NCBI GenBank assembly: GCA_947303055.1
Contig: CAMYXV010000005.1
Location: 1-49,022 of the forward strand
Reading direction: 5' to 3'
Source of the DNA: an uncultured Bacteroidales bacterium
Lineage (GTDB): Bacteria; Bacteroidota; Bacteroidia; Bacteroidales; F082
Length of the DNA stretch: 49,022 nt
Shown: piece by piece, positions 26,596 through 48,936 of the stretch
Numbering within the stretch: position 1 is the stretch's first letter
How the letters are laid out: every line of letters starts with the position of its first letter
Notes under the pieces: model-generated
What the model was told of the DNA's origin: nothing
Seen by the model: only the letters and a program-made list of their open reading frames with translations
Database searches by the model: none
Made by a program: the position numbers and the translations under genes

Positions 26596-26631
26596 ATATT
26601 TATTTAGGTTTTTATTACTTGTTTTAGGCTT

Positions 26632-26639
26632 CAAATATA
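26632..26639 (-). promoter_or_regulatory. -7 box (TATATTTG) for the YCF48-like gene
   Basis: The minus strand reads GCTTATATTTGAAGCC, 36 bp before the ATG at 26595. It lies between that gene and the stop of the preceding one at 26670. Confidence 0.6.
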
Positions 26640-26669
26640 AGCCTTTTTTATTTATGCAATTAGTTCAAT

Positions 26670-28373: not shown

Positions 28374-28399
28374 TGTTGTATGTTTTTTAATTGCATTTA

Positions 28400-28645: not shown

Positions 28646-28690
28646 ATTAGTCTTATTTGTCCTATAAGTCTCACTTCGTTAGCACGATAG
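28590..28690. repeat. 101-bp direct repeat of leader and signal module, copy 1
   Basis: This is identical to 29524-29624; an 85-bp part (28606-28690) is also shared with the copy starting at 23285. Identity ends exactly after the codons for MAG. Confidence 0.9.
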
Positions 28691-28710
28691 CACGAAAGTA
28701 CGAATAACGA
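28677..28710. repeat. TTAGCACG-type repeat array
   Basis: CGTTAGCACG, ATAGCACG, AAAGTACG and AATAACG lie between the genes at 28645 and 28716. Confidence 0.7.
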
Positions 28711-28715
28711 AAATC

Positions 28716-29579: not shown

Positions 29580-29675
29580 ATTAGTCTTATTTGTCCTATA
29601 AGTCTCACTTCGTTAGCACGATAGTACGCATAACGTTAGCACGAAAAAAAGTCACTCCTTAATCCATTTCCCACT
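29540..29675. repeat. 136-bp perfect direct repeat, copy 2
   Basis: Identical base for base to 23285-23420, including the 7-A run in the spacer, the stop codon and the terminal GKWIKE codons of the upstream gene. Confidence 0.9.
29611..29643. repeat. TTAGCACG-type repeat array
   Basis: Same arrangement as 23356-23388 and part of the 136-bp repeat. Confidence 0.75.
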
Positions 29676-31205
29676 CTCCACTTCCACGCCATTCACTATC
29701 ACCTTCCAAACATAAGTCCCCTCACTCCAATCCGTCGTATTGATGGCCGTGACATTCTCCGTAATCTCTCGCTTATAAACCATCCTCCCATTCATATCAT
29801 ACACCTCCACCCGCGCATCCTTCAATCCCGTCCTGATGTTCAGCACATCCTTCCCAGGGTTGGGATAAGCCACCGCCACGGCGAATCCAGCATCATGGGC
29901 TTCGTCGATGCCATCAAATGCCGATGCAGGCACTTTATAGACAACAGACAAAGGCTCAGTCATACTTGGTTTGTTAATTTGACAACGAATAAGGACATCT
30001 CCATGAGGGCTGACACACATACCACCTGAATAAATGATTTGGGTATTGTCTTCTTTGTAGTAAATCTCATCGAGTTTGTTCAGGTCCTCGTCCAAATGAA
30101 CGATATATAGGCTCTCCGAAAGAAACCCGCTTTTGTCCATGCCGCTCACCATGTAAACCCCACCTTCACTGTCAAAGTCGATGGAAACATCAAATCCATC
30201 GGTGCTGGGCGAGGGTGAAGTAATACCCCATGTGTAGGCCAACTGGTCGAAACTCTCTGCATCAAACATGCCCATAAATACATCTTGGTTGTGTATGATG
30301 ATGGGAGGATAGCCATGGGGATCGTTCGGGTTAGGTATCATCTCTGTCTGCTGGTTGATGCTGTATGTCCTCCCATTGTATGGATTTAATCGGAAGCAGG
30401 CATCTTGTCCGCATAGGAAAGGATAGGAGATTCGGTCTATATTCTCTACAACGGCAACGGTATTAAGGTCTGCATCCAAAGTATGGCAGTCGTATGTCAG
30501 AGGACTTGCCGGATGTGTCATAATGATGCGCATTCCTAACGAATCAGGTGTTGGAAGGAAGATAGGCCCATCATAGCTAGTACGGGGAACATGCTCCAAG
30601 ACACGCTCCCTAATTACCACACCCTTATCGCTGAACTTCAGAATTTTAATACCCATATATCCCCCAGTGAAAAGGCTATCCAAAGGATAGGCAAAGAAAA
30701 AGCTTCCGTCCTTGTTCACAATCCAATGCTCATAAATCTCACGATTCTTAAGTGCATCGACACTCTCCCAATCGTAATCATCATAAGACAGAGACAAGTC
30801 TTCTGAAATGGTCACTTTTTGCAAACGCGTTGTGTCGCCAAAGAACTTGAACAAGAAAAGACCAAGAGAGCCATTGCGGAAACGCTCGATTTGGCTCATT
30901 TTGGTATCATGCCAATTGTCTGGAGAGTGCATATTCGAAGAACTAAGGTAAGTCGTGCTAATAACATTTCCTTCATCGTCCACCAAGGAAAGATAGTAGT
31001 CGTATGTATGATCTTTTGCCGTATCAGCCCTAACCCCAGTTCCGATGATAAACTCATTCGAACTGACAAATCTCATCTGCCCATCGAAAAACACTCCTGG
31101 TAATTCTTCCGCAGACACGATAGCTTGAATTCCTTGTGCTTGCATCGTCACCCCTCCCGCCATCAGCAGGAGCGCAAGCAAAATGTAAAATCTCGTTGTT
31201 TTCAT
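29652..31205 (-). CDS. T9SS cargo of propeller family P1 with CTD-2
   Basis: The 517-aa protein starts at MKTTRFYILLALLLMAGG; the 24 extra residues in the track ORF are encoded by the repeat-rich spacer. The body matches P1 (DCHTLDADLNTVAVVENI, YIVHLDEDLNKLDEIYY, CVSPHGDVLIRCQ). CTD-2 ends KVIVNGVEVESGKWIKE, the short form without the dispersed-repeat insert. Export by T9SS is expected; the role is unknown. Its 3' end lies in the 136-bp repeat. Confidence 0.75.
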   Translation of the reverse strand: MKTTRFYILLALLLMAGGVTMQAQGIQAIVSAEELPGVFFDGQMRFVSSNEFIIGTGVRADTAKDHTYDYYLSLVDDEGNVISTTYLSSSNMHSPDNWHDTKMSQIERFRNGSLGLFLFKFFGDTTRLQKVTISEDLSLSYDDYDWESVDALKNREIYEHWIVNKDGSFFFAYPLDSLFTGGYMGIKILKFSDKGVVIRERVLEHVPRTSYDGPIFLPTPDSLGMRIIMTHPASPLTYDCHTLDADLNTVAVVENIDRISYPFLCGQDACFRLNPYNGRTYSINQQTEMIPNPNDPHGYPPIIIHNQDVFMGMFDAESFDQLAYTWGITSPSPSTDGFDVSIDFDSEGGVYMVSGMDKSGFLSESLYIVHLDEDLNKLDEIYYKEDNTQIIYSGGMCVSPHGDVLIRCQINKPSMTEPLSVVYKVPASAFDGIDEAHDAGFAVAVAYPNPGKDVLNIRTGLKDARVEVYDMNGRMVYKREITENVTAINTTDWSEGTYVWKVIVNGVEVESGKWIKE

Positions 31206-31250
31206 TATTCTATTGGTTTTATTAGTCGTATCAGTCCTATAAGTCCCCTT

Positions 31251-31283
31251 CGTAAGCACGTAAGCACGTAAGTACACATAACG
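31251..31283. repeat. TTAGCACG-type repeat array
   Basis: CGTAAGCACG, TAAGCACG and TAAGTAC, then CATAACG, upstream of the P1 gene at 31205. Confidence 0.7.
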
Positions 31284-31284
31284 A

Positions 31285-31350
31285 TCAACTCAAAACTATA
31301 AACTCTCAACTTTCCACAACTCTCAACTCTAAACACTAAACTCTAAACTA
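31285..31350. repeat. CTCTAAAC-type short tandem repeat
   Basis: The tract is built from AACTCTCAAC, AACTCTAAAC and ACTAAACTCTAAAC units. It is the reverse complement of the repeat class at 5431-5461. Confidence 0.75.
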
Positions 31351-31364
31351 ACCCAGCCCCGGGA

Positions 31365-33005
31365 TTATTCCTTAATCCACTTCCCACATTCCGCTTCCCT
31401 GCCATCAGCCATCACCTTCCAAACATAAGCCCCCGAAGACCAGTTTCCGGCATTTATCGAAGTGATGTTATCAGTGATTTCTTGATTGTGAACAAGCCTC
31501 CCATTCATATCATACACCTCCACCCAAGCATCCCGCAACCCCGTTCTGATATTCAGCACATCCTTCCCTGGATTGGGATAAGCGATGGCCACCTTCAGGC
31601 CGCTGGCGTGGGCCTCCTCTATGCCTACAAAAGCCTCGGCGGGGAATTTGAGGATGGAACAGCCGAATTTGTTGCCATCCAAACCTGTGATTCCAGTTAC
31701 AAATATCAGCCCACCGTCACGGGTGGCGGCGACGGTCTGTGAAGTGTTGCATATCCTGTCGCGCTGCCCGTAGAAAAGGGTCGAGATGGTGTCAAACTCG
31801 GGAGTCAGCCGCTCTATCACTACCCATGAATCCCTATTGTAATAAGAACCTTCGTCCAAGGCGTATGCGAAATAGAAGGTGTTGTCGTCAAGCAAGCTGA
31901 CGCCTGAGAAAACGGTCGGGAAATCGTAAGTATGGCCTGTCGTCTTTCTTTCCAAATAACGGACGATGGGCGCGTTTCCCCCGGAGCCATTGATGTCGTC
32001 GTTGTACTCATACAGGACACAGCAATACTCGTCCTGCATCTCGACGACCGAACTTGTCAGATAGGTTCGCCCTTGGCGGTTACGCACGGCATTGAAATTC
32101 TGGAAAGTGATGTTGCCGGCAAACGGATGCACTTGCGACGGATGTCGGAAACACCGGCTGCGCACCAAATTGAAATCATGGTCCAGATAGGCAAGATTGT
32201 ATTCTCCGGCGATGACATCGTAAATAAGGCCGTAGTGCAGATACAGGCTGTCCGCTTTGACGATATGCTGGCGTTGGTAAACCAAATCGGGGATGACACC
32301 GCAACGGACATTCCCGCAGTAACTCTTTCTTTGCAGCAGATTACCCTCGAAATCCATCCTGAAGAACACCGTGGAGTCGTAGCCGCGAGACTCGTCCCCG
32401 ACATAACTGACTGCCTTGTAATACGCGCCTACGATGCTGCCGTCATCATCAACAAAACAACTGTAGATTTGTGCTTGTCCACAGTTATAGGGATAAAAAT
32501 GGTTGTCCTCGCTTCTCCATTCAAAGGTGTCAATCGGGATTTCAAACTCATGGCTCTCGGCAATGGAGAGGTCGTCGTTGAGTTTATACAAGCCAAGGAT
32601 ACAGTGGTCGGTAACGGGCTCAAAGTTCGTGAAATAGTTGAACGAGCAGGTGTCGTGGTCGGGACTGTATGCCATCAACGCATACACTTCGCTTGACTCA
32701 TTTTCAAGTACATACGGGGAATAGGCGAAGTAACCGTCCTTATAATAATGCACGAAGGCCAATTCTGTCCCGTCGGCATCCAGCGCCAACAAGACGGGAT
32801 GAGGCGACACACGGGTTCCGCAAGAATTCTCGTCACGGAATGCGCCCGTTGCGATGATTCTTCCGTCCATTAGTTCATGGGCTTCAATGAAGCCGGAATA
32901 AGTACGCTCAGGTGTGCTGTAATTCCATTCCCATTCCTGCCCGAAAGCTTCGCTTCCGAAAACCATCAGCACCGCAAGCAGGGTGTAAAGTCTTGTTGTT
33001 TTCAT
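31365..33005 (-). CDS. T9SS cargo of family P2 with CTD-2 and a mosaic signal peptide
   Basis: The 546-aa protein is the most divergent P2 member (SPDHDTCSFNYF, CILGLYKLNDDLSIAESHE, SWVVIERLTPEFD). Its signal peptide starts like the shared module (MKTTRLYTLLAVLM) but ends like the other P2 genes (VFGSEAFGQEWEW), as if the first codons were replaced. CTD-2 ends KVMADGREAECGKWIKE with no dispersed repeat. It follows the outer-membrane receptor gene by 32 bp, so the two may share a transcript. The ligand is unknown. Confidence 0.75.
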   Translation of the reverse strand: MKTTRLYTLLAVLMVFGSEAFGQEWEWNYSTPERTYSGFIEAHELMDGRIIATGAFRDENSCGTRVSPHPVLLALDADGTELAFVHYYKDGYFAYSPYVLENESSEVYALMAYSPDHDTCSFNYFTNFEPVTDHCILGLYKLNDDLSIAESHEFEIPIDTFEWRSEDNHFYPYNCGQAQIYSCFVDDDGSIVGAYYKAVSYVGDESRGYDSTVFFRMDFEGNLLQRKSYCGNVRCGVIPDLVYQRQHIVKADSLYLHYGLIYDVIAGEYNLAYLDHDFNLVRSRCFRHPSQVHPFAGNITFQNFNAVRNRQGRTYLTSSVVEMQDEYCCVLYEYNDDINGSGGNAPIVRYLERKTTGHTYDFPTVFSGVSLLDDNTFYFAYALDEGSYYNRDSWVVIERLTPEFDTISTLFYGQRDRICNTSQTVAATRDGGLIFVTGITGLDGNKFGCSILKFPAEAFVGIEEAHASGLKVAIAYPNPGKDVLNIRTGLRDAWVEVYDMNGRLVHNQEITDNITSINAGNWSSGAYVWKVMADGREAECGKWIKE

Positions 33006-36609: not shown

Positions 36610-37470
36610 CTACCTCACCATCACCTTCTCCATAAAGATTCTTCCTTCTCCATCTCTAATCCGCACCAAATAAACCCCTTGCGGCAAGTCCGCCACAGGG
36701 ATTTCATTCGTGCCTTGAATGGTTTTCACCAACTGCCCAAAAGCATTGAACACTTGCACTTCTGCAGCTTCAAGGCCTTCTATCGTCACCTTTTCCTTTG
36801 CCGGATTGGGATATAGGGTTATTTCAGAATCTTTGTTTCCCTCAACGGCATCATAGGGATAAGTGCATGTGTTGTATTCAGGGTTCTGCCAAACAAGTTC
36901 TCCGTATTGATGGAAGCATAGTAGGCAGTGCCACCCGTCATAAACGCCATAGTATCCACTCCATAGCAATCCAAAATCGCTGCCGAGACCCTCAACCCAT
37001 GTTTCCTTGGCGCGAGGCCTTCCCAAATTATCATATTCCAAGCCAAACCAAAACTTTCTCCTTTCAATACCTCCAATCTGTTCTGTGCTAATGGAATCAA
37101 GGACAAAAGAAGCTCCCGGCTCACCAAAACACAAAGTGTCGCCAACGCTGGCAGTGAAGTCATAAAGTAATGTTTCCACAGAAGTATTCAAATGGCGTTT
37201 CCATACCTTTCCGTCCTCTTCCCTAAGTACTGTGAACAGATGAGGGTCACCATTATTCAAGATGCCCATGATTTTCATATATCGGACATTTCCAATGATT
37301 GTGTCTCCCGAGCACCAATTGACATAGTTTGAATAACCAAACAACGTAGTAGAAAGGGTATGCCATTCGTTTCCTTTCTGGGCAATAGGTAAATACTCTT
37401 GTGCTTGCATCGTCACCTCTCCCGCCATTAGCAGGAGCGCAAGCAGGGTGTAAAATCTTGTTGCTTTCAT
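36610..37470 (-). CDS. T9SS cargo: stand-alone 'S' module with CTD-1
   Basis: The 286-aa protein starts at MKATRFYTLLALLLMAGE, as the 15 extra track residues are encoded by spacer DNA. The mature part is the S module (LLYDFTASVGDTLCFG, ERRKFWFGLEYD, WVEGLGSDFGLL, LLCFHQYGELVWQNPEYNTC) and CTD-1 (LYPNPAKEKVTIEG to FMEKVMVR). It is closest by eye to the corresponding part of the SBBP protein at 17204. It follows the P2 gene at 37491 by 20 bp and is probably the last gene of the operon begun at 41103. Confidence 0.75.
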   Translation of the reverse strand: MKATRFYTLLALLLMAGEVTMQAQEYLPIAQKGNEWHTLSTTLFGYSNYVNWCSGDTIIGNVRYMKIMGILNNGDPHLFTVLREEDGKVWKRHLNTSVETLLYDFTASVGDTLCFGEPGASFVLDSISTEQIGGIERRKFWFGLEYDNLGRPRAKETWVEGLGSDFGLLWSGYYGVYDGWHCLLCFHQYGELVWQNPEYNTCTYPYDAVEGNKDSEITLYPNPAKEKVTIEGLEAAEVQVFNAFGQLVKTIQGTNEIPVADLPQGVYLVRIRDGEGRIFMEKVMVR

Positions 37471-37490
37471 TGTACTATTGTTTTGATTTG

Positions 37491-39197
37491 TTATTCCTTT
37501 ATCCATTTCCCGCATTCCGCTTCTTTGCTATTGGCCATCACTTTCCAAACATACACTCCCTTAGCCCAATCCTCAGCACCAATTGCCGTCACATTCTCCG
37601 TAATGGCTTGGCTGTGGATGAGTCTTCCGTTGATGTCGTACACTTCCACGATGGCGTTCTGCAAGGCGGTGCGGATGTTGAGCACATCTTTCCCCGGATT
37701 GGGATAGGCAATCGCCACCTTCAGACCATTGTCGTGGGCTTCCTCAATGCCTACAAAAGACTCGGCGGGAAATTTTACGACAGTTGTTCTCGTCAAATTG
37801 GGATTGTTAGTTTTATGTGATTCATAAGTCAACAACACTCCTCCATCTATCGTGGTGTTTATGCTTTCTGCCATACACCAAAGTTCGTCAAAACCATTAC
37901 TGATAAATACAGTGGAAATCGTGTCAAAGTTTTCATCCAACCGTTCAATCACAATCCATGAATCGCCATTGAAATTTTCGCCAAGATTCAATGTGTAGCA
38001 ATACAATATCGAATGGTCATCTAGGGCAGCTACAGACTTGCTGATGCCAACGCAATCAAATTCTTCTGTTTTCCTTTCCATTTGGTGAACAATAGACAAG
38101 TACTCTTGAGTTGCATCTAAATCATCATCGAACTCAAACAAACGGCAATCTTCCGCAGATTGTGTGTAATGCACATTGGCCTGTGTTGCCATATATGTTG
38201 TGTTGTGACCGCTTCTCAAGACAGCCATATTGTCACATTGATTTTGAGTTGAATTGCCGTCTGGTTGTTGAAATTTTCTAATTCTCAAAATGTTGAAATC
38301 ATTATCCAAATAGAAAACGGTTCCTGTTTCACCAGCCTTGTTTGGTTCATTATCATTGTCTAATAAAGATGCAGTGACAAAAAACGAAGGTGCCATCGGA
38401 TTATAGTAGATGTAACCATAATCCGTTTTAACGATATGCTCACGCCTCAACATCTCTTGCCAGGCATAAAGCCCATGGTTAACCATCGATATACCAACAT
38501 TAGCCAACAGGTCTCCCCCCAGACTCATCTTAAAGAAAAACAAGGAGTCATTGCCCTGAACAGGACTCGTGGAGTTCACATTTTTCGTGTAAGCACCAAC
38601 GATGCAATCCCCATCAAGAATGGCTGAGTGAATGAAAATGTTACCGCTTGCCGCACATGGATTATATCTCCAATAGCCGCTGCTCATGTCCTCAACAGTA
38701 TCAATCGGGAAAACGTATTCATAGCTTTGTTCAATTTCCAAATCGTCATTGAGTTTATAAAGCCCAAGGATGGCATCTATAGGCGGATTGTCGTAGTTTT
38801 TGAAATAGTTGAAATAGCTGTAACAATGGTCAGGGCTGTATGATGTCAGCATATAAATCTCTCCATTGTCTTTTTCAAACACATACGGAAACCAGGAGGC
38901 TCCCCAATAACCTTGCTTGAAATAGTTGTTTTGCGCCAACACCTCACCTTCAGACGATAAGGCTATCAAAGCAGGATGTGGTGGGTAAATATAGCCAGTT
39001 TGCGAACCGCTTTGAAAACATTGGGCAGCACAAACCATAACGCGTCCATCCGACATTTCGTATGCGCAATACTGGTGTGTCGCCTCTGCATCTGATAAAT
39101 TATACTCGATGGAGTATTCCCACTCCTGCCCAAAGGCCTTTCCCCCGAAAACCAGCGCGAGGGCAAAAACGATTGAAATTCTGTGTTTTGTGTTCAT
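37491..39197 (-). CDS. T9SS cargo of family P2 with CTD-2
   Basis: The 568-aa protein has a signal peptide ending GGKAFGQ and is very similar to the gene at 26670 (HQYCAYEMSDGRVMVC, PPHPALIALSSEGEVLA, YSPDHCYSYFNYF, AILGLYKLNDD, SWIVIERLDENF). CTD-2 has the variant middle LQNAIVEVYDINGRLIHSQ, which is nearly identical to the one in 15636 rather than to 26670, so body and tail have different closest relatives. The end is KVMANSKEAECGKWIKE. It starts 4 bp after the stop of the IgGFc-binding-like gene. Confidence 0.75.
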   Translation of the reverse strand: MNTKHRISIVFALALVFGGKAFGQEWEYSIEYNLSDAEATHQYCAYEMSDGRVMVCAAQCFQSGSQTGYIYPPHPALIALSSEGEVLAQNNYFKQGYWGASWFPYVFEKDNGEIYMLTSYSPDHCYSYFNYFKNYDNPPIDAILGLYKLNDDLEIEQSYEYVFPIDTVEDMSSGYWRYNPCAASGNIFIHSAILDGDCIVGAYTKNVNSTSPVQGNDSLFFFKMSLGGDLLANVGISMVNHGLYAWQEMLRREHIVKTDYGYIYYNPMAPSFFVTASLLDNDNEPNKAGETGTVFYLDNDFNILRIRKFQQPDGNSTQNQCDNMAVLRSGHNTTYMATQANVHYTQSAEDCRLFEFDDDLDATQEYLSIVHQMERKTEEFDCVGISKSVAALDDHSILYCYTLNLGENFNGDSWIVIERLDENFDTISTVFISNGFDELWCMAESINTTIDGGVLLTYESHKTNNPNLTRTTVVKFPAESFVGIEEAHDNGLKVAIAYPNPGKDVLNIRTALQNAIVEVYDINGRLIHSQAITENVTAIGAEDWAKGVYVWKVMANSKEAECGKWIKE

Positions 39198-39201: not shown

Positions 39202-41103
39202 TTATTGTTTTATCCATTTTCCAGATTCAGCTAAGGTCCTTGAGCCCTGAGGTCCCTGAGCCTGTCGAAGGGTCGAAGGGCCGCCCGTGTAAACCTTCCA
39301 AACATAACTTCCCGAAGCCCAATTCTCAGCATTTATTGAAGTTAAAGTATCGGTAATTTCTTGACTGTGAATTAGTTTTCCATTCAAATCATACACCTCG
39401 ACATGAGCATTTGGCAGAGCCGTGCGGATGTTGAGTGTGTTGCCGCCTGGATTGGGATAGGCGATGGCCACTTTCAGCCCTTCATCATTCATTTCTTCAA
39501 CATCATCCGGCTGGATATGAATAATGGTACTCACCCGGCCTGCCAAAACATGCTGCCCCTGATGGCCAAGCCGATAGATGTCGCACGACAAAGGAAAGTC
39601 CCCTTCAGTAGAATAACTATGTTGCGTCGAAACGTCTGTCTCAACCGCCGAGCTGCCGTCACCGAAATCCCAATGGGCTTCGCTGAGGCTGTAATTAGTC
39701 AGCAGTTTCAAGGTCAGCGTTTCGTCTATGGCGGCCTCAAACCCTTCGGGATGCTCCAATTCCGAAACATTGTTCACCGTCAATTCCGAAGTCAAGGCCA
39801 TCGACGCGGGCAAGAAGGCATAGCCTTCATATACGCCAAAGCCGTACACATGCGACAAAAAGCCTCCTTCGCTGTTCGACAGGCGATGCACTCCGTTCGT
39901 GAGCTGAATCCTGGCGAAAGAATACGCGGTGTTGCCTGGCACCAAATCGAATTCCGTCGCAATCTCGATGCTGTCCAACATCATGCCCGAAACATGGCTG
40001 GTCTCGCAAACGACGTTGGTATAGTGCTGGTGTGAATAATAGGTGTGGAAAGTGCAGAAAGTCGTATGCTCAATCTGCTGCTCCACGGGTGGGATGAGGA
40101 CCATGGCCGGGTCGCCCACCGACCACGGGTCGCCGCAGCCCCAGAAATACAAGCCGACCATAGCTGGTTCCGAAGTCTCGAGATACATGGCTGGTTCGTC
40201 TGCTGTGATGACAATGTCGTAGGGTTGGTTCGGGTTGATGGTGCCTATCAAGGTACCGTCTCTCCAGATTTTGCAATGCTCTTTCAACGTCGTGATGCGG
40301 ATCCAATCGGCGGAGCGCTCCAGGGTTTGCGTCACCACGAAACGCCGTCCCAATGCGGTCACAGGCATCAGTTGCTCTACGGCATGGTCAAGGTAACTGA
40401 CGGAAATGTCGGGAACAGAAGTGTCGCGGTTTCCAGCAAAGACGGCCACCTTTTGTTTCTTGTTGCGCACCGACACGCGGCTTCCCGTGAAATTCTGGTA
40501 ATTGACGGATTGCAACTGGTAGCATTGTCCGGTCTGCAAAGTCACCGAAAAAGGCTCGTTGGCATGATGTCCGTGCTTGGTGTCGCAACTGAGCAGAAAG
40601 TCAACCATGGTGTTGTTCTCCACTGCGATGACCGTAAGCACCGCCCGTTCCCCTTCCTGGTCGCCCGTGGATTTGAAAGTCTGCACTAGATAGTCGCTCC
40701 CCAACGATGAAAGGGGCAAGGCGCAAGAAACGTCAATAGAGCCTCTCCTGTAGTCGGCGACAAACACCGATACGGAATCTGTGGTCTCCACATGAAGCGC
40801 GGTTTCAAGGACGCAATCCGAGCTGTCCTGTGCGTAAGCCTGTTCAATCGGGATGTTGATGACGGTAGCTTGCCCTTCCGTAACCTCAAACGCCTCCGTC
40901 CAGCTCGTGTATGGGTTGGTCACCGTTCCCGAGCAAGCCCTGTCGCCTGTGATTTTGATGAAAGGTTCCACCGTCGACTGTGAATGCTCATCATCGCCAA
41001 TCGGCAGGATGGTTACCCAGAAATCCGTGCCCACCGTGCTTTGGGCAAAAAGCTGCGTTGCTCCCAACAAAAGAAGCAGCATAAGTTGTACTTTTGCTCT
41101 CAT
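39202..41103 (-). CDS. IgGFc-binding-like/PKD T9SS surface protein
   Basis: The 633-aa protein has a signal peptide (ending TQLFAQ) followed by STVGTDFWVT, the entry of the IgGFc_binding-type N-terminal domain. That domain runs to about residue 430 and includes GGFLSHVYGFGVYEGYAF near its end. A PKD domain (about 470-535, AHWDFGDGSSA, QHSYSTEGDF) is next, then CTD-2 (AYPNPGGNTLNIRT). The dispersed repeat gives GPSTLRQAQGPQGSRTLAE before GKWIKQ. Such proteins are thought to be adhesins; immunoglobulin binding is only a family name here. It is the first gene after the conserved promoter at 41130, next to regulator A. Confidence 0.8.
   Translation of the reverse strand: MRAKVQLMLLLLLGATQLFAQSTVGTDFWVTILPIGDDEHSQSTVEPFIKITGDRACSGTVTNPYTSWTEAFEVTEGQATVINIPIEQAYAQDSSDCVLETALHVETTDSVSVFVADYRRGSIDVSCALPLSSLGSDYLVQTFKSTGDQEGERAVLTVIAVENNTMVDFLLSCDTKHGHHANEPFSVTLQTGQCYQLQSVNYQNFTGSRVSVRNKKQKVAVFAGNRDTSVPDISVSYLDHAVEQLMPVTALGRRFVVTQTLERSADWIRITTLKEHCKIWRDGTLIGTINPNQPYDIVITADEPAMYLETSEPAMVGLYFWGCGDPWSVGDPAMVLIPPVEQQIEHTTFCTFHTYYSHQHYTNVVCETSHVSGMMLDSIEIATEFDLVPGNTAYSFARIQLTNGVHRLSNSEGGFLSHVYGFGVYEGYAFLPASMALTSELTVNNVSELEHPEGFEAAIDETLTLKLLTNYSLSEAHWDFGDGSSAVETDVSTQHSYSTEGDFPLSCDIYRLGHQGQHVLAGRVSTIIHIQPDDVEEMNDEGLKVAIAYPNPGGNTLNIRTALPNAHVEVYDLNGKLIHSQEITDTLTSINAENWASGSYVWKVYTGGPSTLRQAQGPQGSRTLAESGKWIKQ
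39256..39270. repeat. Dispersed repeat CTGAGCCTGTCGAAG (copy 6, inside CTD-2)
   Basis: It is the longest form: the core is flanked by TTGAGCCCTGAGGTCC and GGTCGAAGGGC. It encodes PSTLRQAQGPQG. Confidence 0.85.
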
Positions 41104-41129: not shown

Positions 41130-41220
41130 CAAAACTATAGCAAAAAATTGCCAAAAAAGTCAATTCCAACTGTCAGTACAGATTTTTCTTGAAAACAAGT
41201 ATTGGTAATCAGTGGATTAC
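41130..41220 (-). promoter_or_regulatory. IgGFc-like operon promoter with conserved upstream element (regulon member A)
   Basis: The plus-strand reading is CAAAACTATA (-7), A-tracts, CAA at offset 31 and GTACAGATT at offset 46-54, then TTTTTCTTGAAA and TAATC-N4-GATTA. The layout matches 47023-47113 over the same 91-bp length. Confidence 0.7.
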
Positions 41221-41262
41221 GAAATTTTTATCCATAAAAAAGTTAGGGCATATCCATAAGAT

Positions 41263-42759
41263 TTAACTCAAAAATGGCCCAATCAAGCCTTCAATGGCTT
41301 CGTTTTGGGTCTTTTTCTTGATGTTGGAGCGGTATTTCGCCACAGTGTTCTCGCGCAGGTCGAGGATGTCTGCCATCTCCTTCACGCGGAAGCCAAAGAA
41401 AGAAAAAACACAGATGTCGAGTTCAGTTTCGTTCAAGTCGGGATAGGTGGCTTTCAGTTGGGCCAAAGCTTCGGGATAAGCCCCATTGAACACTTCGATG
41501 ATGCGCTTGCCTGTGTTGTTGAGGCGGTCGTTATAAATGGCCACCGCTTTCAGGCGCAGCGTTTCCATTTCCTTGGCCTCCAACGTGCCGCGCGCCTCTT
41601 GCAAGTCGCGGCTGATAACTTCGTGCTGCTCAGCCATTTTTTTCTTGTAACGACGATGGTAAACGAAAAAAGCCACAAACACCATCAAAACCAACAATCC
41701 AATGACCATTGATATCCAAAGCCGAGCAGCCCTATTATTCGATGCTGCTTTGTCCCTCAGATATTCATTCAGCATCGGCATGGCTTCGCCATTATGGTTC
41801 GCCCTCAAAACCTGTTTTTCTTGATAAGTCTTCACAAGGTTGTAATAAGGCATCGCCTTCAAGGTGTCGCCCATTTCCTCATAGCAATCGGCCAGGCCAA
41901 AGGCTGCCTGTGCCTTAAAGTGTTCGTCGTTCGTCTCATAAGCTTTTTCAAGATAGGCCACTGCCAAATCATACTCTTGCCTTAGATAATAGATAAAAGC
42001 CATCTCGACACAATTCCGATAATAAAGAATGAAAGTGGTATCAATCAATTCACGGGCTTTCGCAAAATGCAAAAGTGCGGAGTCGTATTGATGGCTATGA
42101 CGCAGACTGTTGGCCAATGCATTTTCCAGCATGGCCGTTTCGTAAGGGAAATGTCGGGCATCAGTTATGGCAAGTCCACCATCACAATAATAATAGGCGG
42201 AATCGCCTTCACCAGCCTTGCCGAAACGCTCATACAACAGGCTAATATTGGCCATAGATCTGAGCATCCATGATGTGTCGCCTACGGCGGAGGCATAGTC
42301 CAAGCCCAGTCGGCCAAGTTGGGTGCTGCTTTGTTCATCTGAAAAAATGTGAGCGATACGCGATGTAATGAAATGTATTTTGCTGTAGAGACGGCCAACA
42401 GGCGCTTGCGAAGCCTCGAAATGCGCATCCAACAGGTTCAAGGCTTGCAGCAGTTGCGTTGTTGCTTGCTCCATTTTGTCTTGTCCATAAAGCAAACTCC
42501 CCAAAAGATAATGGCAACGTGCCTGCATCCAAAGATGGCGACAAGTACTATCCTCATCGTAAAATGCCAGGGCTGGCATCAGGATGGTATCCGATACAAG
42601 GATACCTTTGGCATCGCAAATGATGGTTTCCACCGAATCAAGAAGCGTAGTGTATCCCTCATCTTGGCTATTGATGGGAGATAAAAAGTCGCAGTCCCGC
42701 TTGGTGCAGGCTATCAATACGACGAGAATCAAGAGTCCTATGGACAAATTCCGTTTCAT
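41263..42759 (-). CDS. Membrane-anchored TPR-HTH transcriptional regulator (regulator A)
   Basis: The 498-aa protein starts MKRNLSIGLLILVVLIAC, a signal with lipobox LIAC (Cys18). A TPR-like helical region (about 70-320), one membrane helix (about 347-367, WISMVIGLLVLMVFVAFFV), a coiled coil (about 374-410) and a LuxR-type HTH at the end (NETELDICVFSFFGFRVKE to ENTVAKYRSNIKKK) follow. The predicted topology is a periplasmic sensor and a cytoplasmic DNA-binding domain. The -7 box lies only 5 nt before the ATG. Regulator B (47136) has the same plan. It is directly upstream of the IgGFc-like operon, its likely target. Confidence 0.8.
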   Translation of the reverse strand: MKRNLSIGLLILVVLIACTKRDCDFLSPINSQDEGYTTLLDSVETIICDAKGILVSDTILMPALAFYDEDSTCRHLWMQARCHYLLGSLLYGQDKMEQATTQLLQALNLLDAHFEASQAPVGRLYSKIHFITSRIAHIFSDEQSSTQLGRLGLDYASAVGDTSWMLRSMANISLLYERFGKAGEGDSAYYYCDGGLAITDARHFPYETAMLENALANSLRHSHQYDSALLHFAKARELIDTTFILYYRNCVEMAFIYYLRQEYDLAVAYLEKAYETNDEHFKAQAAFGLADCYEEMGDTLKAMPYYNLVKTYQEKQVLRANHNGEAMPMLNEYLRDKAASNNRAARLWISMVIGLLVLMVFVAFFVYHRRYKKKMAEQHEVISRDLQEARGTLEAKEMETLRLKAVAIYNDRLNNTGKRIIEVFNGAYPEALAQLKATYPDLNETELDICVFSFFGFRVKEMADILDLRENTVAKYRSNIKKKTQNEAIEGLIGPFLS

Positions 42760-42764
42760 CGCCG

Positions 42765-42772
42765 CAAAGATA
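42765..42772 (-). promoter_or_regulatory. -7 box (TATCTTTG) of regulator A, 5 nt from the start codon
   Basis: The minus strand reads TATCTTTGCGGCGATG. The transcript would start at or next to the ATG, so a leaderless mRNA is likely. The box lies 10 bp past the stop of the C10 protease gene. Confidence 0.65.
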
Positions 42773-42782
42773 GACAAAATCT

Positions 42783-45335
42783 TTATTTCATCACCGTCAC
42801 TCGCAACGTATAATTTTTCCCTTCCGCATCCACAATCCTGAACAGATACAAACCATCCACCAAGCTTTCCACAGAGATGCGATCGGCATTCTCTGCGCTT
42901 CTCACCAACTGACCTAAGGTGTTATACACCTGTATCACAGCAGCTTCAACGCCTTCAATCGTCACCCTGTCCCTTGCGGGATTGGGATAGACCGTCACCT
43001 CGCTTGCACTCGCTTCATCCAGGCCGTCCACCGACCAATACACCCTCACGAAATACTCAAACTCGTTGTACTTCGAGCGTGCTGGTGCCGAGTAGCAGTC
43101 GATGGCTTGGTAGTAGGCCACCACCTTATACAGATAGAAAGTCTCGTCCTCCAGAGTGGTGTTATCTGTATAAGAAGTGGCACTGGCACTGAGCGTCTTG
43201 ATTTTCTGCCAGTTCATGTCGGCTTCCTTGGTGCGGTAGATGTAATACCCTGAGAGGCCGTCATGCGGCTGCGGCGTTACCCAAGTCAGTTTCACCTTGT
43301 TGTTGTTGGTCATCTCAAACCAAAGGTTGGAGGCAGGCTGGCAATCGTCGCCCACGGTGGCACAAGCCTCATTGGTCGGGTCGCTTTCGCCGCCTTCACA
43401 GAAGGCCGTCACAAAATAGCAATTGCCGCCATAGCTTGGCTCTTCGTCTATAAACCCTGTTTCCTGTCCCAATATCGTGGCCAACATAGTTCCGTCTCGA
43501 TACACATTGTATTTCTCTGCTTCGGCTGAATCGAACCAATCCAACACGATATGGTCGCCTTCTGCAAAGGCATACAAGTCGATAGGCATTCCACAATCCA
43601 TGCCGTTGCCGCAACTATTGTTGGTCTGAAGGAAAACGCCTTCCTCGATGCCGTCCAAAGGACCGGAATAGGAATAGACAATCTGTTGCTCAGCGTCCTT
43701 GATGACGAAACTCACATCGCTGACGGTGCTGCTTCCTTTGGCCCAGGCGAACGAGACGTGGCCTAAAGGCACCGCGACGGTCAGCGTCTCGCTGCTGGAA
43801 TGGGCCGTTACCGATTCCATCAATTGCATCGCGTTGTTGATTACCTGTATGGAAGCCCCTTGCCAGCCGTTGAAGAAGGTAGTGCCTGCCACAATGGTCC
43901 AGTTGCAGGAAGGCCCGAAGCGTACTCCGCTTTCAGTGGCAATCCTGCCATGGTGGCCGTCGTTCACCGCATACACTTGATAATCGTGCAGACCGTAAAA
44001 CGGTACCTCGTCGGTGATTTCCATAGCCGCTCCAGGAGTAACATTGTCTTGGGTGTAAACCACCCTGCCATCACGTTTGACGACTATCTGGTCGATATGC
44101 GTCAAGTTGCTGTTGTTTAAGGCCTTCGTGGGGTTGTCCCAATGCACGGTGCAGATATAGGAGTCATCGGAAAGCGGTTGCACACTCAGATTGGTGGGTT
44201 CTTTAGGCGTGGCGTTGTAGACTCCGAGCGGTAGGGCATCTGCTATCATCTTTTGTGCCAAATTCCATGTCTGGTTATAGGTTTGCAGATTGTCGATGCT
44301 AAACCAGCCGTCAAGGGCACCGCCCCAGCTCCAGTTGATGTGAAACAGGCCGTTGTCGTCGTAGCCGTCGCAGATAAAAGAATGCCCCATGCTTCCGCCA
44401 TCAGTACCGGCATACAAGATGGGAATGCCCATGTCCAAGGCATCGCGCATCATACCCACCCATTCGTCGTAGGGGTAATCGTCCCGTAGCAGGTTGTGCG
44501 AAGTGCCGTAGCCGAAATAGGCAGTCATCGCTGAAGGGATGCTCTGGTGCAAGGCACCGCTGGCCGAGGGTCCGTAGTTCATATCAACGCTTACCCCGCA
44601 ATGGAATATCAGGGTGCCCACATAAGGTTCGTTCTCGTGCAACGACTCTGGCATCTCGTCCCAATGATAGATAGTTTCACCGAAATTGGCGTTGAGAGTG
44701 CCATAGAGGTAGCTGTTGTATGAATGCGAGCCGGTGCCTTGCTGGGGATAGTTCCAATACTTCATCACCTGTGCCATCGAGGTGGCTACGCAACCTGCAT
44801 AAGCTTGGCCACAAGGCCCGTTCACGTCTTTTGGACAGCATGAGTTGTAGTAGCAGTCTTGGTCCCAATGCGTGGCAATCAAAGGTTGGACGACTACCGT
44901 TTTCGAGCTCTGTGTTTTGCCGCAGCGTTCAAGGTTTTCCCATTCCTGGGCGATCACAAAGTCGGCTTTTTTGAGGTTTTCTTCCGCAAAGTCAACGGAT
45001 TGGCCGTAACCGTCGAGGAAGTACCTCAAGCCATCAGGGATGTTTTCCGTGTCAAAAGCTCCCGTTTCGGAATAGCCGAGAATGGGGCTGGTAAGGTCAC
45101 AGGCAGAGATGATGACGAAGCCGTCAGGGATGCCGTTGAAGACATGATACGAAGGGAAGCCCTTCTCGGTGAGCGTTGTGCCGACCCATTCCAACTGGGT
45201 GCTCTCGGCAAAGTTGGCCTCGACGAATTTCATACCCAAAGCCTTAGCGCGTTGTGCATCCACGGTTCCTGCAAAGGCAGAAGCCGATGCCAGCAGCAGA
45301 ACTGCCAATAAGTTGTAGAATCTGAAGTTTTTCAT
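42783..45335 (-). CDS. C10-family cysteine protease (streptopain/interpain-like), T9SS-secreted, second copy
   Basis: The 850-aa preproprotein has a signal peptide (ending ASASAFAG) and a propeptide (about 24-140, GFVIISACDLTSPILGYSE). The C10 domain has Cys182 in AYAGCVATSMAQVMKYW and His318 in SMGHSFICDGYDDNGLFHINWSWGG, and fibronectin-III-like domains follow. The tail is CTD-1-like (VYPNPARDRVTIEG to NYTLRVTVMK), unlike the tail of the paralogue at 8169. The enzyme would be activated by propeptide removal outside the cell. It lies 20 bp after the beta-helix gene and is probably co-transcribed with it from 47023. Confidence 0.9.
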   Translation of the reverse strand: MKNFRFYNLLAVLLLASASAFAGTVDAQRAKALGMKFVEANFAESTQLEWVGTTLTEKGFPSYHVFNGIPDGFVIISACDLTSPILGYSETGAFDTENIPDGLRYFLDGYGQSVDFAEENLKKADFVIAQEWENLERCGKTQSSKTVVVQPLIATHWDQDCYYNSCCPKDVNGPCGQAYAGCVATSMAQVMKYWNYPQQGTGSHSYNSYLYGTLNANFGETIYHWDEMPESLHENEPYVGTLIFHCGVSVDMNYGPSASGALHQSIPSAMTAYFGYGTSHNLLRDDYPYDEWVGMMRDALDMGIPILYAGTDGGSMGHSFICDGYDDNGLFHINWSWGGALDGWFSIDNLQTYNQTWNLAQKMIADALPLGVYNATPKEPTNLSVQPLSDDSYICTVHWDNPTKALNNSNLTHIDQIVVKRDGRVVYTQDNVTPGAAMEITDEVPFYGLHDYQVYAVNDGHHGRIATESGVRFGPSCNWTIVAGTTFFNGWQGASIQVINNAMQLMESVTAHSSSETLTVAVPLGHVSFAWAKGSSTVSDVSFVIKDAEQQIVYSYSGPLDGIEEGVFLQTNNSCGNGMDCGMPIDLYAFAEGDHIVLDWFDSAEAEKYNVYRDGTMLATILGQETGFIDEEPSYGGNCYFVTAFCEGGESDPTNEACATVGDDCQPASNLWFEMTNNNKVKLTWVTPQPHDGLSGYYIYRTKEADMNWQKIKTLSASATSYTDNTTLEDETFYLYKVVAYYQAIDCYSAPARSKYNEFEYFVRVYWSVDGLDEASASEVTVYPNPARDRVTIEGVEAAVIQVYNTLGQLVRSAENADRISVESLVDGLYLFRIVDAEGKNYTLRVTVMK

Positions 45336-45355
45336 TGTATTCTGTTTTAATAGGT

Positions 45356-46981
45356 TTATTCTTTAATCCACTTTCCTGATTCTGTTAAGGTCCCTGAGCT
45401 TGTTGAAGGTCCTACCATCCTCCAAAAATACATTCCAGAGGGCCAATCTTCGGTAGCAATGCTTATCGAATAGCCCTCAATCTGCTGCTCAATCATTTTC
45501 CTGCCATTCAGGTCATAAACCGCCACAACAGCATCCTCCCAATCGGTCAAGACATGCAGCACATCCCTGCCAGGATTGGGATAAACGGTATTCGAGGCGA
45601 TTTGTTCCTCCACTGCGTCCCAATCGGGAGCCTCGATGGCGCCAAGGTCGATGCGACCGTTAATGACACGCGGATTGCCTGAAAAGTCAGTGTCGGGATA
45701 GTATTGGCTCATATTAGTGGCACCCTCATTGAGGCAGGGCGAGGTCTCGGTGAGCGACCAGTGGAAAGGCACGGTTGAATGGTCATACTCGGAACCGATG
45801 CCTAAAGTAGGATGGAGGAATTGCGGGTCTTCGCAAATTGTACCTTCGTACCCATCTGGACAACTAACACAATTGTTGAAAATGGTGGGGTCGGGATGGG
45901 AAGGGTCCATGCGCTCAAAGTGGATCTGGGGTAGGGTTTGTGGATAAAAATCGTATCGGTCGTTGCCATAGACGATGTTGTTGTAGATTTTCTGCTGCCC
46001 GTTAGTCCAGATGCCAGAGCCATTGTCGTTCATGAAACCCTCACTTTGGTTGTTTACGATCGTGTTGTTATAATAATGGGAATAGTTAGGGGCCGTAGTA
46101 CCCAGCACGGGCGAATAGCCTTCGTTGTTGACGATAATATTGTCGTGGAAACGCCCCACGCCTTCCCAGCCGAGATACGCCGTACTGCCGTGGTTGCCGT
46201 GGATGTAGTTGTTATAGACCTGAGGCCCTGAAGCCGACAGCGACAATTCACCGACATGCATGTCCAAGGCCGTGCCATACGTGCCAGTGTTGTTGTAAAA
46301 CTCGCAATTCCTCACCGTGAAATGCCGCAAGCCGCCCATCGAAATGCTTGCACCCCACCATGCATAATTGTCGTGGAAAATGCAATGCTCTACAAGAATT
46401 GTCCCGGGATTGAGCACATATATACCGCCGCCACCACTACCACTTGGCGAACTGGTGTTGTGTTCATTACGATTCTGCGAGAAACGGCAATGGTCGAAAT
46501 GACAGTATTTCTTGTTTCTCACCTCAACGCCAGCACCAAACCTCTCCCCCTCGGGTGCGCCCGAGATAATCTTTCCGAACTTCACCTCGCAATACTCCAT
46601 GACCACACTGTCTTGGGCGCTGCTCTGGTCGGAAAGCAAGTGGATGCCGTGCCAGCCCGTTTCCATTGTAGGATTGTAGAAATCGGTAGTGTCGCGGGCG
46701 GTGAAGACGACTGGATACTTGTCCGCACCCAAAGCATAAAACGAGCCATTGTGTACGGTGATGCGGTAATAGCCCTCCGCAATCACCCAAGTCCCGCGTT
46801 CAATGGTAAGGCAAGCTGAGCCGCCTTCATCTGGCTCGATGACGACATCACCTATGAGTCTTACCGTGTCGGCATCCCAAAGCACTTGGCCGTGGTATTC
46901 TCCCGACACCTCGATGGTCTGTGCTGCAAGCGGAGCCGTCAGCAAGGCCATCCAAAATGCAAAAACCAAACTTTTCTTCAT
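45356..46981 (-). CDS. Right-handed beta-helix T9SS protein with choice-of-anchor-Q-like region
   Basis: The 541-aa protein starts at MKKSLVFAFWMALLTAPLAAQ (46981); the track start at 47074 precedes the promoter. Residues about 90-370 are parallel beta-helix coils (VEHCIFHDNYAWWGASIS, VRNCEFYNNTGTYG, YNNIVYGNDRYDF). ETSPCLNEGATN to NGRIDLGAIEA resembles the choice-of-anchor Q end common in secreted beta-helix proteins, often polysaccharide-active or binding. CTD-2 (VYPNPGRDVLHVLT) follows, with a degenerate dispersed repeat giving GPSTSSGTLTES before GKWIKE. It is the first gene behind the conserved promoter at 47023. Confidence 0.8.
   Translation of the reverse strand: MKKSLVFAFWMALLTAPLAAQTIEVSGEYHGQVLWDADTVRLIGDVVIEPDEGGSACLTIERGTWVIAEGYYRITVHNGSFYALGADKYPVVFTARDTTDFYNPTMETGWHGIHLLSDQSSAQDSVVMEYCEVKFGKIISGAPEGERFGAGVEVRNKKYCHFDHCRFSQNRNEHNTSSPSGSGGGGIYVLNPGTILVEHCIFHDNYAWWGASISMGGLRHFTVRNCEFYNNTGTYGTALDMHVGELSLSASGPQVYNNYIHGNHGSTAYLGWEGVGRFHDNIIVNNEGYSPVLGTTAPNYSHYYNNTIVNNQSEGFMNDNGSGIWTNGQQKIYNNIVYGNDRYDFYPQTLPQIHFERMDPSHPDPTIFNNCVSCPDGYEGTICEDPQFLHPTLGIGSEYDHSTVPFHWSLTETSPCLNEGATNMSQYYPDTDFSGNPRVINGRIDLGAIEAPDWDAVEEQIASNTVYPNPGRDVLHVLTDWEDAVVAVYDLNGRKMIEQQIEGYSISIATEDWPSGMYFWRMVGPSTSSGTLTESGKWIKE
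45394..45408. repeat. Degenerate dispersed repeat CTGAGCTTGTTGAAG (copy 7, inside CTD-2)
   Basis: Two substitutions from the core. It encodes GPSTSSGT at the same place in the sorting domain as the other copies. Confidence 0.7.
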
Positions 46982-47022
46982 GGCATAAAATGTTTTTGAT
47001 GGTACTTTTTTGTTCGTGCCTC

Positions 47023-47113
47023 CAAAATTATATAAAAAATTACGGGAAAAATCAACGGCTATGGCCAAGTACATATTTTTTCTTGAAACCCATCTTGATA
47101 ATCAACGAGTTAC
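47023..47113 (-). promoter_or_regulatory. Beta-helix/C10 operon promoter with conserved upstream element (regulon member B)
   Basis: The plus-strand reading is CAAAATTATA (-7), A-tracts, CAACGGCT at offset 30 and GTACATATT at offset 46-54, then TTTTCTTGAAA and TTGATAATCAA, an 11-bp palindrome. A second AGTACATATTTTTCTT starts at 47122, 54 bp further upstream. Confidence 0.7.
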
Positions 47114-47135
47114 AATAAAAAAGTACATATTTTTC

Positions 47136-48800
47136 TTACTCCAAAGCCGTGGAATTAGGGTCAAAATCACCCTTGTTTTTAAGGTAGGAACGGTATTTTG
47201 CCACCGTGTTTTCGCTCAGGCCGAGCAGGTCGGCCTCTTCCTTGATGCGGAAACCGAGAAACGTCAAAACGACAAGGTTGCGCTCCGTCTTGCTGAGGTC
47301 GGGGTAGGCCGACTTCATCTTCTCGATGCCTTTGGGATAAGCCGATTCAAACGCCTCCATGATGCGCTGCAGCCGATCTTTCTGTCCAGACTGGTAGATG
47401 GCATTGGCCTGTTGCTGCAGCATCTCCTTCTGCTGTGCCGTGAGTTGCTCCAATTCGGTATGTAGTAGGCTTTGTGCCTCGCGAAGGCGTGAAGCTTCGG
47501 CTTCCTTGCGTCGTCTGTAGAAATAGACGAATAGTGCCAAGAGGGCCAACACGACCAACAGCAGAGTCAACAGCACATACAGCCTCGTGCTTTTCCGTTG
47601 ATGCGCCTCTTCCTGCTGTTGCAGCTCCTCTTGCTTGTCGAACTCCTCCTGTACCATCACCATATCCTTCATGTTGGCTTCGGGATGCTCCATAGTCAGC
47701 AGACGTTCGGAATACTCGATGGCGTTCTTTTCGTCGCCCAATGCCTTGTATGACTCGTAGAGATACCGATACAATTCATAGTTCTCAAAAAACCTGTCAA
47801 TGGACTGGCCCACAGCGATGGATTGCTCGCCATAATAGATACAGGAGTCGTATTGCTGCATGTGGAAATATGTGTCAGAGAGCGTTTCGAGCAAGGACTG
47901 CTGATGATAGCCATACGCATAGTCCGCTGTGTCGGTCAAGCCTTCCAGTCCGGCTTTGGCTTCCTCGACGGCATGGCTGAGCAGTTGCTGCCGTTCCTCC
48001 TCGGTCTCATAATGGTTTTGGTCGACACAATAGTTGTAATAAAAAGCAAGGTTGTCGTGGAATACGGCACATTCGTTGGCGTAGCCGAGAGCTTCGGCAG
48101 ATTGCAGGCCTTTTTGGAAATAGGCCAGACAGCTGTCGTATTCATTGGTGCCAAGATAGGCGTAGCCAAGCATGTAGGCCGAGCTCAGGCGGTTGTAATG
48201 GTCGCCCGTCTTGGCGAAATACGCATCTGCCTGCGTCAAAGGGGGAATGGCATCAGCGATGTAGACCGAGGCTCCGTAAATCATGCCGAGTTCGAGATAG
48301 ATGAAATACTTGCTTTTCTCGATGACCTCTTGCTCATTGGTGGGCGTTGGGGAGAATGCCACTAAGCGTTTATCCACATGGCGGCAACTTTCGATGCTGC
48401 TGCGGGCTTTCAGCATGGCATCCAGGGCAATCTGCTTAGGCTGTTGCTGATTCGTTGTCTTGTTTCCCATGAGCCAATAGGTCCAGGCCTCATGGTATTT
48501 GTCCCTGCCGCCGACAAACTGCGCTTCAGCCACTTGCAGCAGCGAGTCGAACTCTACATCATATCTTTTATCGTTACCGATGAGCAGGGCCTTCAGCAGA
48601 CAGTAATGCGCCCGTTCCTTCTCCGAAAGTGCCTCCACATTCAGCGTGTCGAGGATCCGCATCGCGCTGTCCGGGTTCTGTTGGTAGAAGCACTCCACGC
48701 GATAGAGCATGTCCTCCTCCTGCGGAGGCACCTCATGCTTGGCACAAGCAGCCATCATCCCAACCAAAATCAGAAGCCCTATGTAAAAAATCCGTTTCAC
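47136..48800 (-). CDS. Membrane-anchored TPR-HTH transcriptional regulator (regulator B)
   Basis: The 554-aa protein uses a GTG start (48800): MKRIFYIGLLILVGMMAAC, with a lipobox (Cys19). TPR-like repeats span about 55-370 (YAYLGTNEYDSCLAYFQKG, LYESYKALGDEKNAIEYSE). They are followed by a membrane helix (about 407-428), a long coiled coil (about 430-470) and a LuxR-type HTH (SKTERNLVVLTFLGFRIKE to ENTVAKYRSYLKNK, about 503-542). It has the same architecture as regulator A. The promoter box is 4 nt from the GTG. It lies directly upstream of the beta-helix/C10 protease operon, the probable target. Confidence 0.8.
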   Translation of the reverse strand: MKRIFYIGLLILVGMMAACAKHEVPPQEEDMLYRVECFYQQNPDSAMRILDTLNVEALSEKERAHYCLLKALLIGNDKRYDVEFDSLLQVAEAQFVGGRDKYHEAWTYWLMGNKTTNQQQPKQIALDAMLKARSSIESCRHVDKRLVAFSPTPTNEQEVIEKSKYFIYLELGMIYGASVYIADAIPPLTQADAYFAKTGDHYNRLSSAYMLGYAYLGTNEYDSCLAYFQKGLQSAEALGYANECAVFHDNLAFYYNYCVDQNHYETEEERQQLLSHAVEEAKAGLEGLTDTADYAYGYHQQSLLETLSDTYFHMQQYDSCIYYGEQSIAVGQSIDRFFENYELYRYLYESYKALGDEKNAIEYSERLLTMEHPEANMKDMVMVQEEFDKQEELQQQEEAHQRKSTRLYVLLTLLLVVLALLALFVYFYRRRKEAEASRLREAQSLLHTELEQLTAQQKEMLQQQANAIYQSGQKDRLQRIMEAFESAYPKGIEKMKSAYPDLSKTERNLVVLTFLGFRIKEEADLLGLSENTVAKYRSYLKNKGDFDPNSTALE

Positions 48801-48885: not shown

Positions 48886-48888
48886 TAT

Positions 48889-48921
48889 CGTTAGCACGTT
48901 AGCACGTAAGCACGCATAACG
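48889..48921. repeat. TTAGCACG-type repeat array
   Basis: CGTTAGCACG, TTAGCACG, TAAGCACG and CATAACG: the most regular 8-bp array in the window. Confidence 0.8.
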
Positions 48922-48936
48922 AAACCCCTATCCCCA

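Follow-up and report, generated by a model that had tools for sequence, protein, structure and literature searches.

What governs the expression of an individual cargo gene of the type IX secretion system (T9SS)? To our knowledge, the triggers of such genes are largely unknown. The question arises at a locus in contig CAMYXV010000005.1 (positions 1 to 49,022) of an uncultured Bacteroidales bacterium of lineage F082 (assembly GCA_947303055.1); this stretch of 49,022 nucleotides is here called the window. On its minus strand, two related genes, regulators A and B, are each followed by a short stretch of DNA (elements A and B) and then by genes for proteins with a T9SS C-terminal domain (CTD). 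All of the evidence presented here is computational and derives from metagenome assemblies; gene calling was simple open reading frame (ORF) picking, and the assembly that holds the window is 2.18 Mb and 58% complete. We consider it quite probable that A and B are SusR-like one-component regulators, each mainly controlling the adjacent T9SS cargo operon through spaced half-sites.

The sequence-only reading had given both regulators a lipobox signal, tetratricopeptide repeats (TPRs), one transmembrane (TM) helix, a coiled coil and a LuxR-type helix-turn-helix (HTH), and this architecture, with the HTH at the C-terminus, was borne out by Pfam, hydropathy and alignment. TPR_12 was matched at 3.4e-11 by regulator A and at 1.7e-5 by regulator B, and hydropathy gave a single internal TM segment in each (residues 354-372 of A, counted from a TTG start, and 407-425 of B). 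Matches to GerE fell under the Pfam gathering score of 23.5 bits (A, 20.8 bits, 3e-4; B, 15.8 bits, 0.011); despite this, the HTH is evident in the alignment of both proteins, and for B in an AlphaFold model as well. Judged by sequence, the domain is LuxR-like and not a canonical GerE-family member. The model of B (mean pLDDT, the predicted local distance difference test score, 84.4) has TPR helices at 27-368, a single long TM/coiled-coil helix at 374-450 and the HTH at 504-543. Together with Pfam and hydropathy, it points to a periplasmic sensor and a cytoplasmic HTH. A and B are 32% identical across their C-terminal 243 aa (E 5e-26), and their recognition helices read LRENTVAKYRSNI and LSENTVAKYRSYL, respectively. 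Searches of the PDB by sequence and by fold returned generic TPR proteins only. In a profile-profile comparison, hhalign aligned 360 columns, reaching from the TPRs to the HTH, with true SusR proteins (E 1.8e-14, probability 98.3), which makes A and B distant homologues of Bacteroides SusR. They share its operator logic and would work as it does.

The layout of the putative operators was examined among 123 distinct related regulators collected in the genus. A first half-site, typically AAAAA-YCT-G/A-TA-CTT, stands immediately past the regulator's stop codon, and a second copy follows 54-57 or 64-67 bp on, equal to 5 or 6 helical turns, so that the two classes lie about one turn apart. A central TTGATTWTCAA is conserved ~30 bp from the first copy; the additional turn of the longer class comes after it and ahead of the second copy. 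From the start of the second half-site to a putative -7 box (TANNTTTG) the distance is 48-50 bp in 73/79 cases. Agreement of the two half-sites of a locus at 5 variable positions was 3.89, against 2.38 when shuffled (largest shuffled value, 2.84). A repeat above the same score also occurs in 57/155 control intergenic regions, but there the spacing is scattered, and a shuffle-based comparison gave a Mann-Whitney p of 2e-5. In the window, the direct repeat of element B, made of two perfect B-type sites, outscored 60/60 dinucleotide shuffles. Taken by itself, the short repeat of element A is not significant (5/60 shuffles equalled it); the element aligns along its whole length with those of other A-class regulators. 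Alignment was the sole basis for judging A-class sites, because B-type sites had served to fit the site model. Low-complexity repeats, entertained as an account of the operators, were ruled out by the shuffles and the spacing.

The half-sites also vary with the protein that would read them. Among the high-confidence cases, from 82 regulators, helices of the form ENTVxQYR accompany A at the code position in 50/50 half-sites, and those of the form ENTVxKYR accompany G in 104/114. The residue before K/Q tracks the preceding bases: these are CTT for N and CCG for E, mostly TCT for L and M, and for R mostly a GT step. Cross-combinations were seen, NTVNK occurring with CTTG and NTVNQ with CTTA, NTVTK with CCCG and NTVTQ with CCTA. 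Helix and site differences correlate after controlling for HTH background (partial Mantel r 0.43, 0/2000 permutations as high), and the base at the code position changes along with K/Q in independent pairs. On this code, CTGTACTT would be the favoured site of the K type and CTATATTT that of the Q type. K/Q labels change 3 times on a tree of the HTH, 7 times on one of the coiled coil and 12 times on one of the sensor, a rise which suggests that HTH and operator have been exchanged as a block beneath different sensors. The first tree had indicated seven independent K/Q switches, a figure that was tempered once the HTH-only tree gave three.

Absence of a neighbourhood bias toward T9SS cargo had been named beforehand as a refuting outcome, but the bias is present: a CTD is encoded by the following same-strand gene in 85/109 scorable cases and by the preceding same-strand gene in 29/78 (Fisher p 2.6e-8; cluster-weighted, 83% vs 34%). 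Chance adjacency in a CTD-rich region is ruled out by this asymmetry. In 8 genomes, CTD matches numbered 65 to at least 150 per genome, roughly 3-5% of genes (gene number estimated). Because regulators were the starting point for choosing the loci, the background of CTDs near them is inflated, which makes the downstream excess conservative. The true downstream rate may be higher, as several of the neighbours without a CTD are short ORFs whose signal peptides are of the same type. The CTD profile was built from YPNP-containing seeds of the same loci and agrees with TIGR04183 for the window genes tested; all five cargo genes of the window end in a T9SS type A sorting domain (TIGR04183 38-50 bits, cut-off 23). 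In an orthologous group made up of L071, L072 and L099-L102, the regulator is followed by a non-CTD gene, in most cases one for a lipoprotein. For the T9SS translocon SprA we used TIGR04189, because Pfam SprA_N had no matches anywhere, controls included; TIGR04189 is present in 7/7 near-complete relatives and was not found in the 58% of the window's own genome that was assembled.

These results support, through operator geometry and helix/half-site covariation, the earlier proposal of a one-protein route from envelope to promoter. The N-terminus would probably be lipid-anchored, and the periplasmic TPR superhelix would detect a ligand. The signal would then cross the inner membrane by the single TM helix and the coiled coil, and the two cytoplasmic HTHs of a dimer (or higher oligomer) would bind the two half-sites, 5-6 helical turns apart on the same face. 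The promoter-side half-site would position the regulator to act on the next gene, presumably activating rather than repressing it. Since the operator lies just upstream of the next gene's promoter, each regulator would control mainly the neighbouring T9SS cargo operon. TPR superhelices usually bind peptides, so our tentative best guess for the ligand is a peptide or part of some molecule that is secreted or comes from the environment.

Several observations weigh against this reading. About 40/122 regulators have no high-confidence site pair under the B-type model, many of them A-class with a different motif. Two NTVTK regulators (L184, L190) break the code with CAA (CAATAC sites). Truly independent K/Q switches number nearer 3, too few for a sign test, which limits the independent evidence for the code. 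Finally, the net charge flanking the TM segment fits a cytoplasmic C-terminus in 83/122 regulators, the rest departing from the rule, so that it lends the topology modest support.

In the window, element A is unusual in being mixed: its distal part is of the TATGGAT type of the A class and its proximal site, AAAAATCTGTACT, is of the B type. Likewise, A's recognition helix, ENTVAKYRSN, is the same as in many B-class proteins, while most A-class relatives have ENTVSKYRT or ENTVAKYRT. The 13-mer AAAAATMTGTACT has exactly 3 copies in the assembly, 2 in element B and 1 in element A. A B-type proximal site, a B-like helix and a 13-mer confined to both elements suggest that module A either is switching specificity or has its cargo under B too. 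A rigid joint search pattern for elements A and B found no matches, because the two differ in their gaps. We are evenly divided on a wider proposal: that these are lineage-expanded, insulated modules of one regulator, one operator and one cargo, in which two residues of the recognition helix (ENTVx[K/Q]YR) spell the operator (K for G, Q for A, x for the bases before), HTH and operator have been shuffled under different envelope sensors, and module A is caught in mid-switch, its B-like half-site and helix meaning that B may also act on A's cargo.

The same wiring could serve a sensor of T9SS or lipoprotein-export status, with the TPRs binding cargo or a CTD stalled in the periplasm, or with the lipid anchor reporting Lol traffic, and so provide feedback on secretion. 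The strong bias to T9SS cargo and the conserved Cys fit this alternative, and among solved structures those closest in fold to the model of B belong to TPR proteins that bind peptides (LGN, Rap), although the resemblance is generic; in P. gingivalis, moreover, the CTD protein PorA feeds into PorXY-SigP signalling (PMC7712824). We nevertheless regard it as unlikely, and no test made here supported the sensing of T9SS or lipoprotein status that the sequence-only reading had suggested for the anchor. The homologous SusR binds maltose (PMC3878776), the orthologous group mentioned above precedes non-CTD genes, and the increase in K/Q changes from HTH tree to sensor tree indicates that sensors have been reassorted relative to outputs, mild evidence against each sensor being devoted to its own cargo.

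The lipobox signal attributed to both regulators was found, as LIAC in A and MAAC in B, the Cys closing a short signal peptide. A strict lipobox regular expression matches 103/120 complete relatives, and most of the remaining regulators have a Cys with an atypical -1 residue (AHC, IRC, VRC among them). The Cys falls at positions 14-28 in 108/115 parsed N-termini, several of the misses being due to wrong start codons. Since the Cys in a lipobox is near-universal, a lipid anchor is likely. The lipobox was scored in 0/12 SusR-model proteins examined; given its conservation in the family, it looks like a conserved, derived feature of this regulator branch. Six 'SPI' members, at one point considered plainly non-lipidated, were dropped from that category, as they carry a Cys with an atypical -1 residue. 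That the N-terminus is instead an uncleaved signal anchor or a type I signal peptide, its Cys not lipidated, would accord with these atypical residues and with the lack of a lipobox in the 12 SusR relatives; we think it improbable, given the fit of most relatives to the strict expression and given that Cys19 is invariant among 31 aligned B-type proteins while the remainder of the signal region varies. If proved, lipid anchoring would be an unusual trait in a transmembrane transcription factor.

Two further alternatives concern the repeats. They could be recombination sites for the exchange of cargo cassettes, instead of or besides operators, and the apparent movement of HTH and element as a block under different sensors would suit such a role; we hold this very doubtful, since the half-site follows the recognition helix, the promoter distance is fixed in helical steps, and no recombinase gene was seen adjoining the elements, although none was specifically looked for. 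That regulator-cargo adjacency is a by-product of CTD gene clustering and the repeats are not operators is barely credible to us: the window is packed with CTD genes, 43/63 genes after a CTD gene also have a CTD, and control regions do contain repeats, but the strand-matched downstream/upstream asymmetry speaks against it, and the quantised repeat spacing, fixed promoter distance and helix covariation would be left unexplained.

The gene order previously read on the minus strand was confirmed as regulator B, its element, a beta-helix/CTD gene, a C10 peptidase/CTD gene, regulator A, its element, an IgGFc-like/CTD gene and two more CTD genes (Table 1). For regulator A, the ATG at 42759 (MKRNLSIGLLILVVLIAC) was preferred to the TTG at 42777. 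The beta-helix cargo is better placed at the ATG at 46981, and element B is therefore intergenic. Regulator A starts ~23 nt past the C10 gene, so B may also drive A by read-through, in which case modules B and A may form a relay.

Table 1. Positions in the window of the regulators, their elements and the cargo genes.
Feature	Position	Strand	Basis or remark
Regulator B	47136..48800	-	GTG start at 48800; ORF, Pfam, hydropathy, alignment, AlphaFold model
Element B, distal half-site AAAAATATGTACTT, directly past B's stop codon	47121..47134	-	Direct repeat, spacing 54; site table
Element B, central palindrome TTGATTATCAA	47095..47105	-	Sequence; conserved ~30 bp from distal site
Element B, proximal half-site AAAAATATGTACTTGG	47065..47080	-	Direct repeat, site table
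Putative -7 box TAATTTTG of beta-helix gene	47023..47030	-	50 bp from start of proximal half-site; spacing conserved in family
Module B cargo 1, right-handed beta-helix protein with T9SS type A CTD	45356..46981	-	
Module B cargo 2, C10 peptidase with Spi domain and T9SS CTD	42783..45335	-	
Regulator A	41263..42759	-	ORF, Pfam, A/B comparison, hydropathy, alignment
Element A, distal portion with a pair of TTATGGATA copies, 22 bp apart, A-class half-site type	41227..41259	-	Direct repeat; aligned with elements of further A-class regulators
Element A, central CTGATTACCAA, counterpart of palindrome	41202..41212	-	Sequence, alignment
Element A, proximal half-site AAAAATCTGTACT, B type not A type	41175..41187	-	Alignment; third and last AAAAATMTGTACT copy in assembly
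Putative -7 box TAGTTTTG of IgGFc-like gene	41130..41137	-	50 bp from start of proximal half-site; spacing conserved in family
Module A cargo 1, IgGFc-binding-like protein with T9SS CTD	39202..41103	-	
Module A, two more T9SS-CTD genes downstream	37491-39197 and 36610-37515 (span 36610..39197)	-	

Elsewhere in the window, positions 13823-33005 (minus strand) hold a dense array of about a dozen T9SS-CTD genes, in which signal peptides and CTDs repeat in cassette-like fashion (direct-repeat families D1-D6) and the middle parts differ, suggesting homogenised ends. Copies of a CTGAGCCTGTCGAAG repeat lie at 39245-39271, 45383-45409, 17420-17446 and 26697-26723; inside the CTD of two cargo genes the repeat is in frame and adds a short peptide (PSTLRQAQGP / PSTSSGT) immediately before the last strand. 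Short intergenic repeats of the form TCGTTAGCACGTTAGCACG...CATAACG (family D10) occur at 23347-25046, 28676-31294 and 48888-48932, one of them just upstream of regulator B.

Among the members of the genus, a Bacteroidales group of the rumen, are bacterium F082, RUG assemblies and Candidatus Limimorpha caballi. An 82-residue HTH query is matched in 77/99 of its genomes, and the window's own genome has about a dozen paralogues with this sensor or architecture. Close relatives, accompanied by elements and CTD cargo, also occur beyond the genus in one further family of the order (G175). Tandem arrays of 2-3 regulator-cargo modules recur in the genus (L149, L153, L166, L167, L098, L087, L142), often mixing A-class and B-class regulators as the window does. 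With a surface-protein gene and a readable operator beside each of dozens of paralogues, uncultured rumen Bacteroidales offer regulator-target pairs that can be tested directly. The helix/half-site code would amount to a natural experiment on the avoidance of cross-talk among paralogous regulators, and the regulator/operator pairs could serve as building blocks for orthogonal promoters in Bacteroidota.

Other arrangements were seen after some regulators. Relatives with the same sensor and a different HTH are followed by tandem 10-11 bp repeats (e.g., AAACCCGTAC twice, AATTCCCGCAA twice) that are not widely spaced and lie mostly before CTD genes (L026 6913-6955, L026 14929-14970, L029 1770-1813, L334 5880-5925, L335 3957-4010). 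With another HTH type (L031 1695-1745, L034 4194-4243), copies of GTARACCTYRTGTAGCCC spaced by 32 bp precede a CTD protein of 790-795 aa, and every copy contains two GTA..CC units 11 bp apart. At L085 6292-9354 and L147, a near-identical 431-aa non-CTD gene (MYLHEHENWTDFRWSAEKV) comes directly after the regulator and only the first half-site is left, as if the gene had been inserted into the module.

How do these regulators compare with known systems? PorXY-SigP (PMC7712824, PMC11320123) likewise couples the envelope to T9SS gene expression; it is a two-component system with an extracytoplasmic function (ECF) sigma factor over the T9SS machinery, whereas A and B would each be one protein for one cargo operon. 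The hybrid two-component systems of Bacteroides share a single membrane-spanning protein and direct-repeat operators, but their DNA-binding domain is of the AraC type, they contain kinase and receiver modules and their repeats are spaced at 21 bp (PMC3878776), in contrast to the TPRs and GerE-like HTH of A and B; neither A nor B has a Pfam match to a histidine kinase or receiver domain. The best NCBIfam match of B, over coiled coil and HTH, is the BT3442 family (NF053779; E 7e-11), with a score of 41.5 bits where the cut-off is 940. BT3442 itself, a TPR protein, heads a cluster of lipoproteins and pore-forming proteins (PMC2954219), a cluster not known as T9SS cargo. DUF6377 (PF19904), a family lacking an assigned function, gave matches below the gathering score (2.8e-5 for A, 1.8e-4 for B) over the end of the TPR region, the TM helix and the coiled coil. 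Literature searches on TPR/LuxR/T9SS combinations and on DUF6377 returned nothing relevant.

The closest likeness is to the SusR-like regulators (BT3705, BT3091 and others; PMC3878776), known mainly from glycan use. They share with A and B a periplasmic sensor, one TM and a cytoplasmic C-terminal HTH in one protein, and likewise an operator of direct repeats set far apart on one face, which adjoins the regulator and lies shortly before a -7 box. For their motifs Ravcheev and colleagues inferred direct repeats on the same face, 67 or 77 bp or about 6-7 helical turns apart (PMC3878776), compared with 54-57 or 64-67 bp in the A/B family; beside several true SusR genes we found similar direct repeats, at 65-67 and 77 bp, with the -7 box mostly 45-49 bp from the second site. 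The central palindrome is conserved in the A/B family, the SusR loci having been compared only for repeats and -7 box distance. SusR-like regulators have a plain signal peptide and glycan-use operons (susC/susD or glycosidases), whereas the A/B branch has a lipobox and adjoins T9SS cargo. Against the curated SusR model NF058541 (cut-off 480 bits), A scored 23.2 bits and B was not listed, and no protein of the window's own genome matched it at E 1e-30; since that model was not passed, the regulators are not filed as SusR itself. The architecture, lipobox aside, and the spaced direct-repeat operator are already known from the SusR-like regulators (PMC3878776), a precedent that the sequence-only reading had missed. 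A and B are filed as a variant of the SusR-like one-component regulators, rewired to T9SS cargo.

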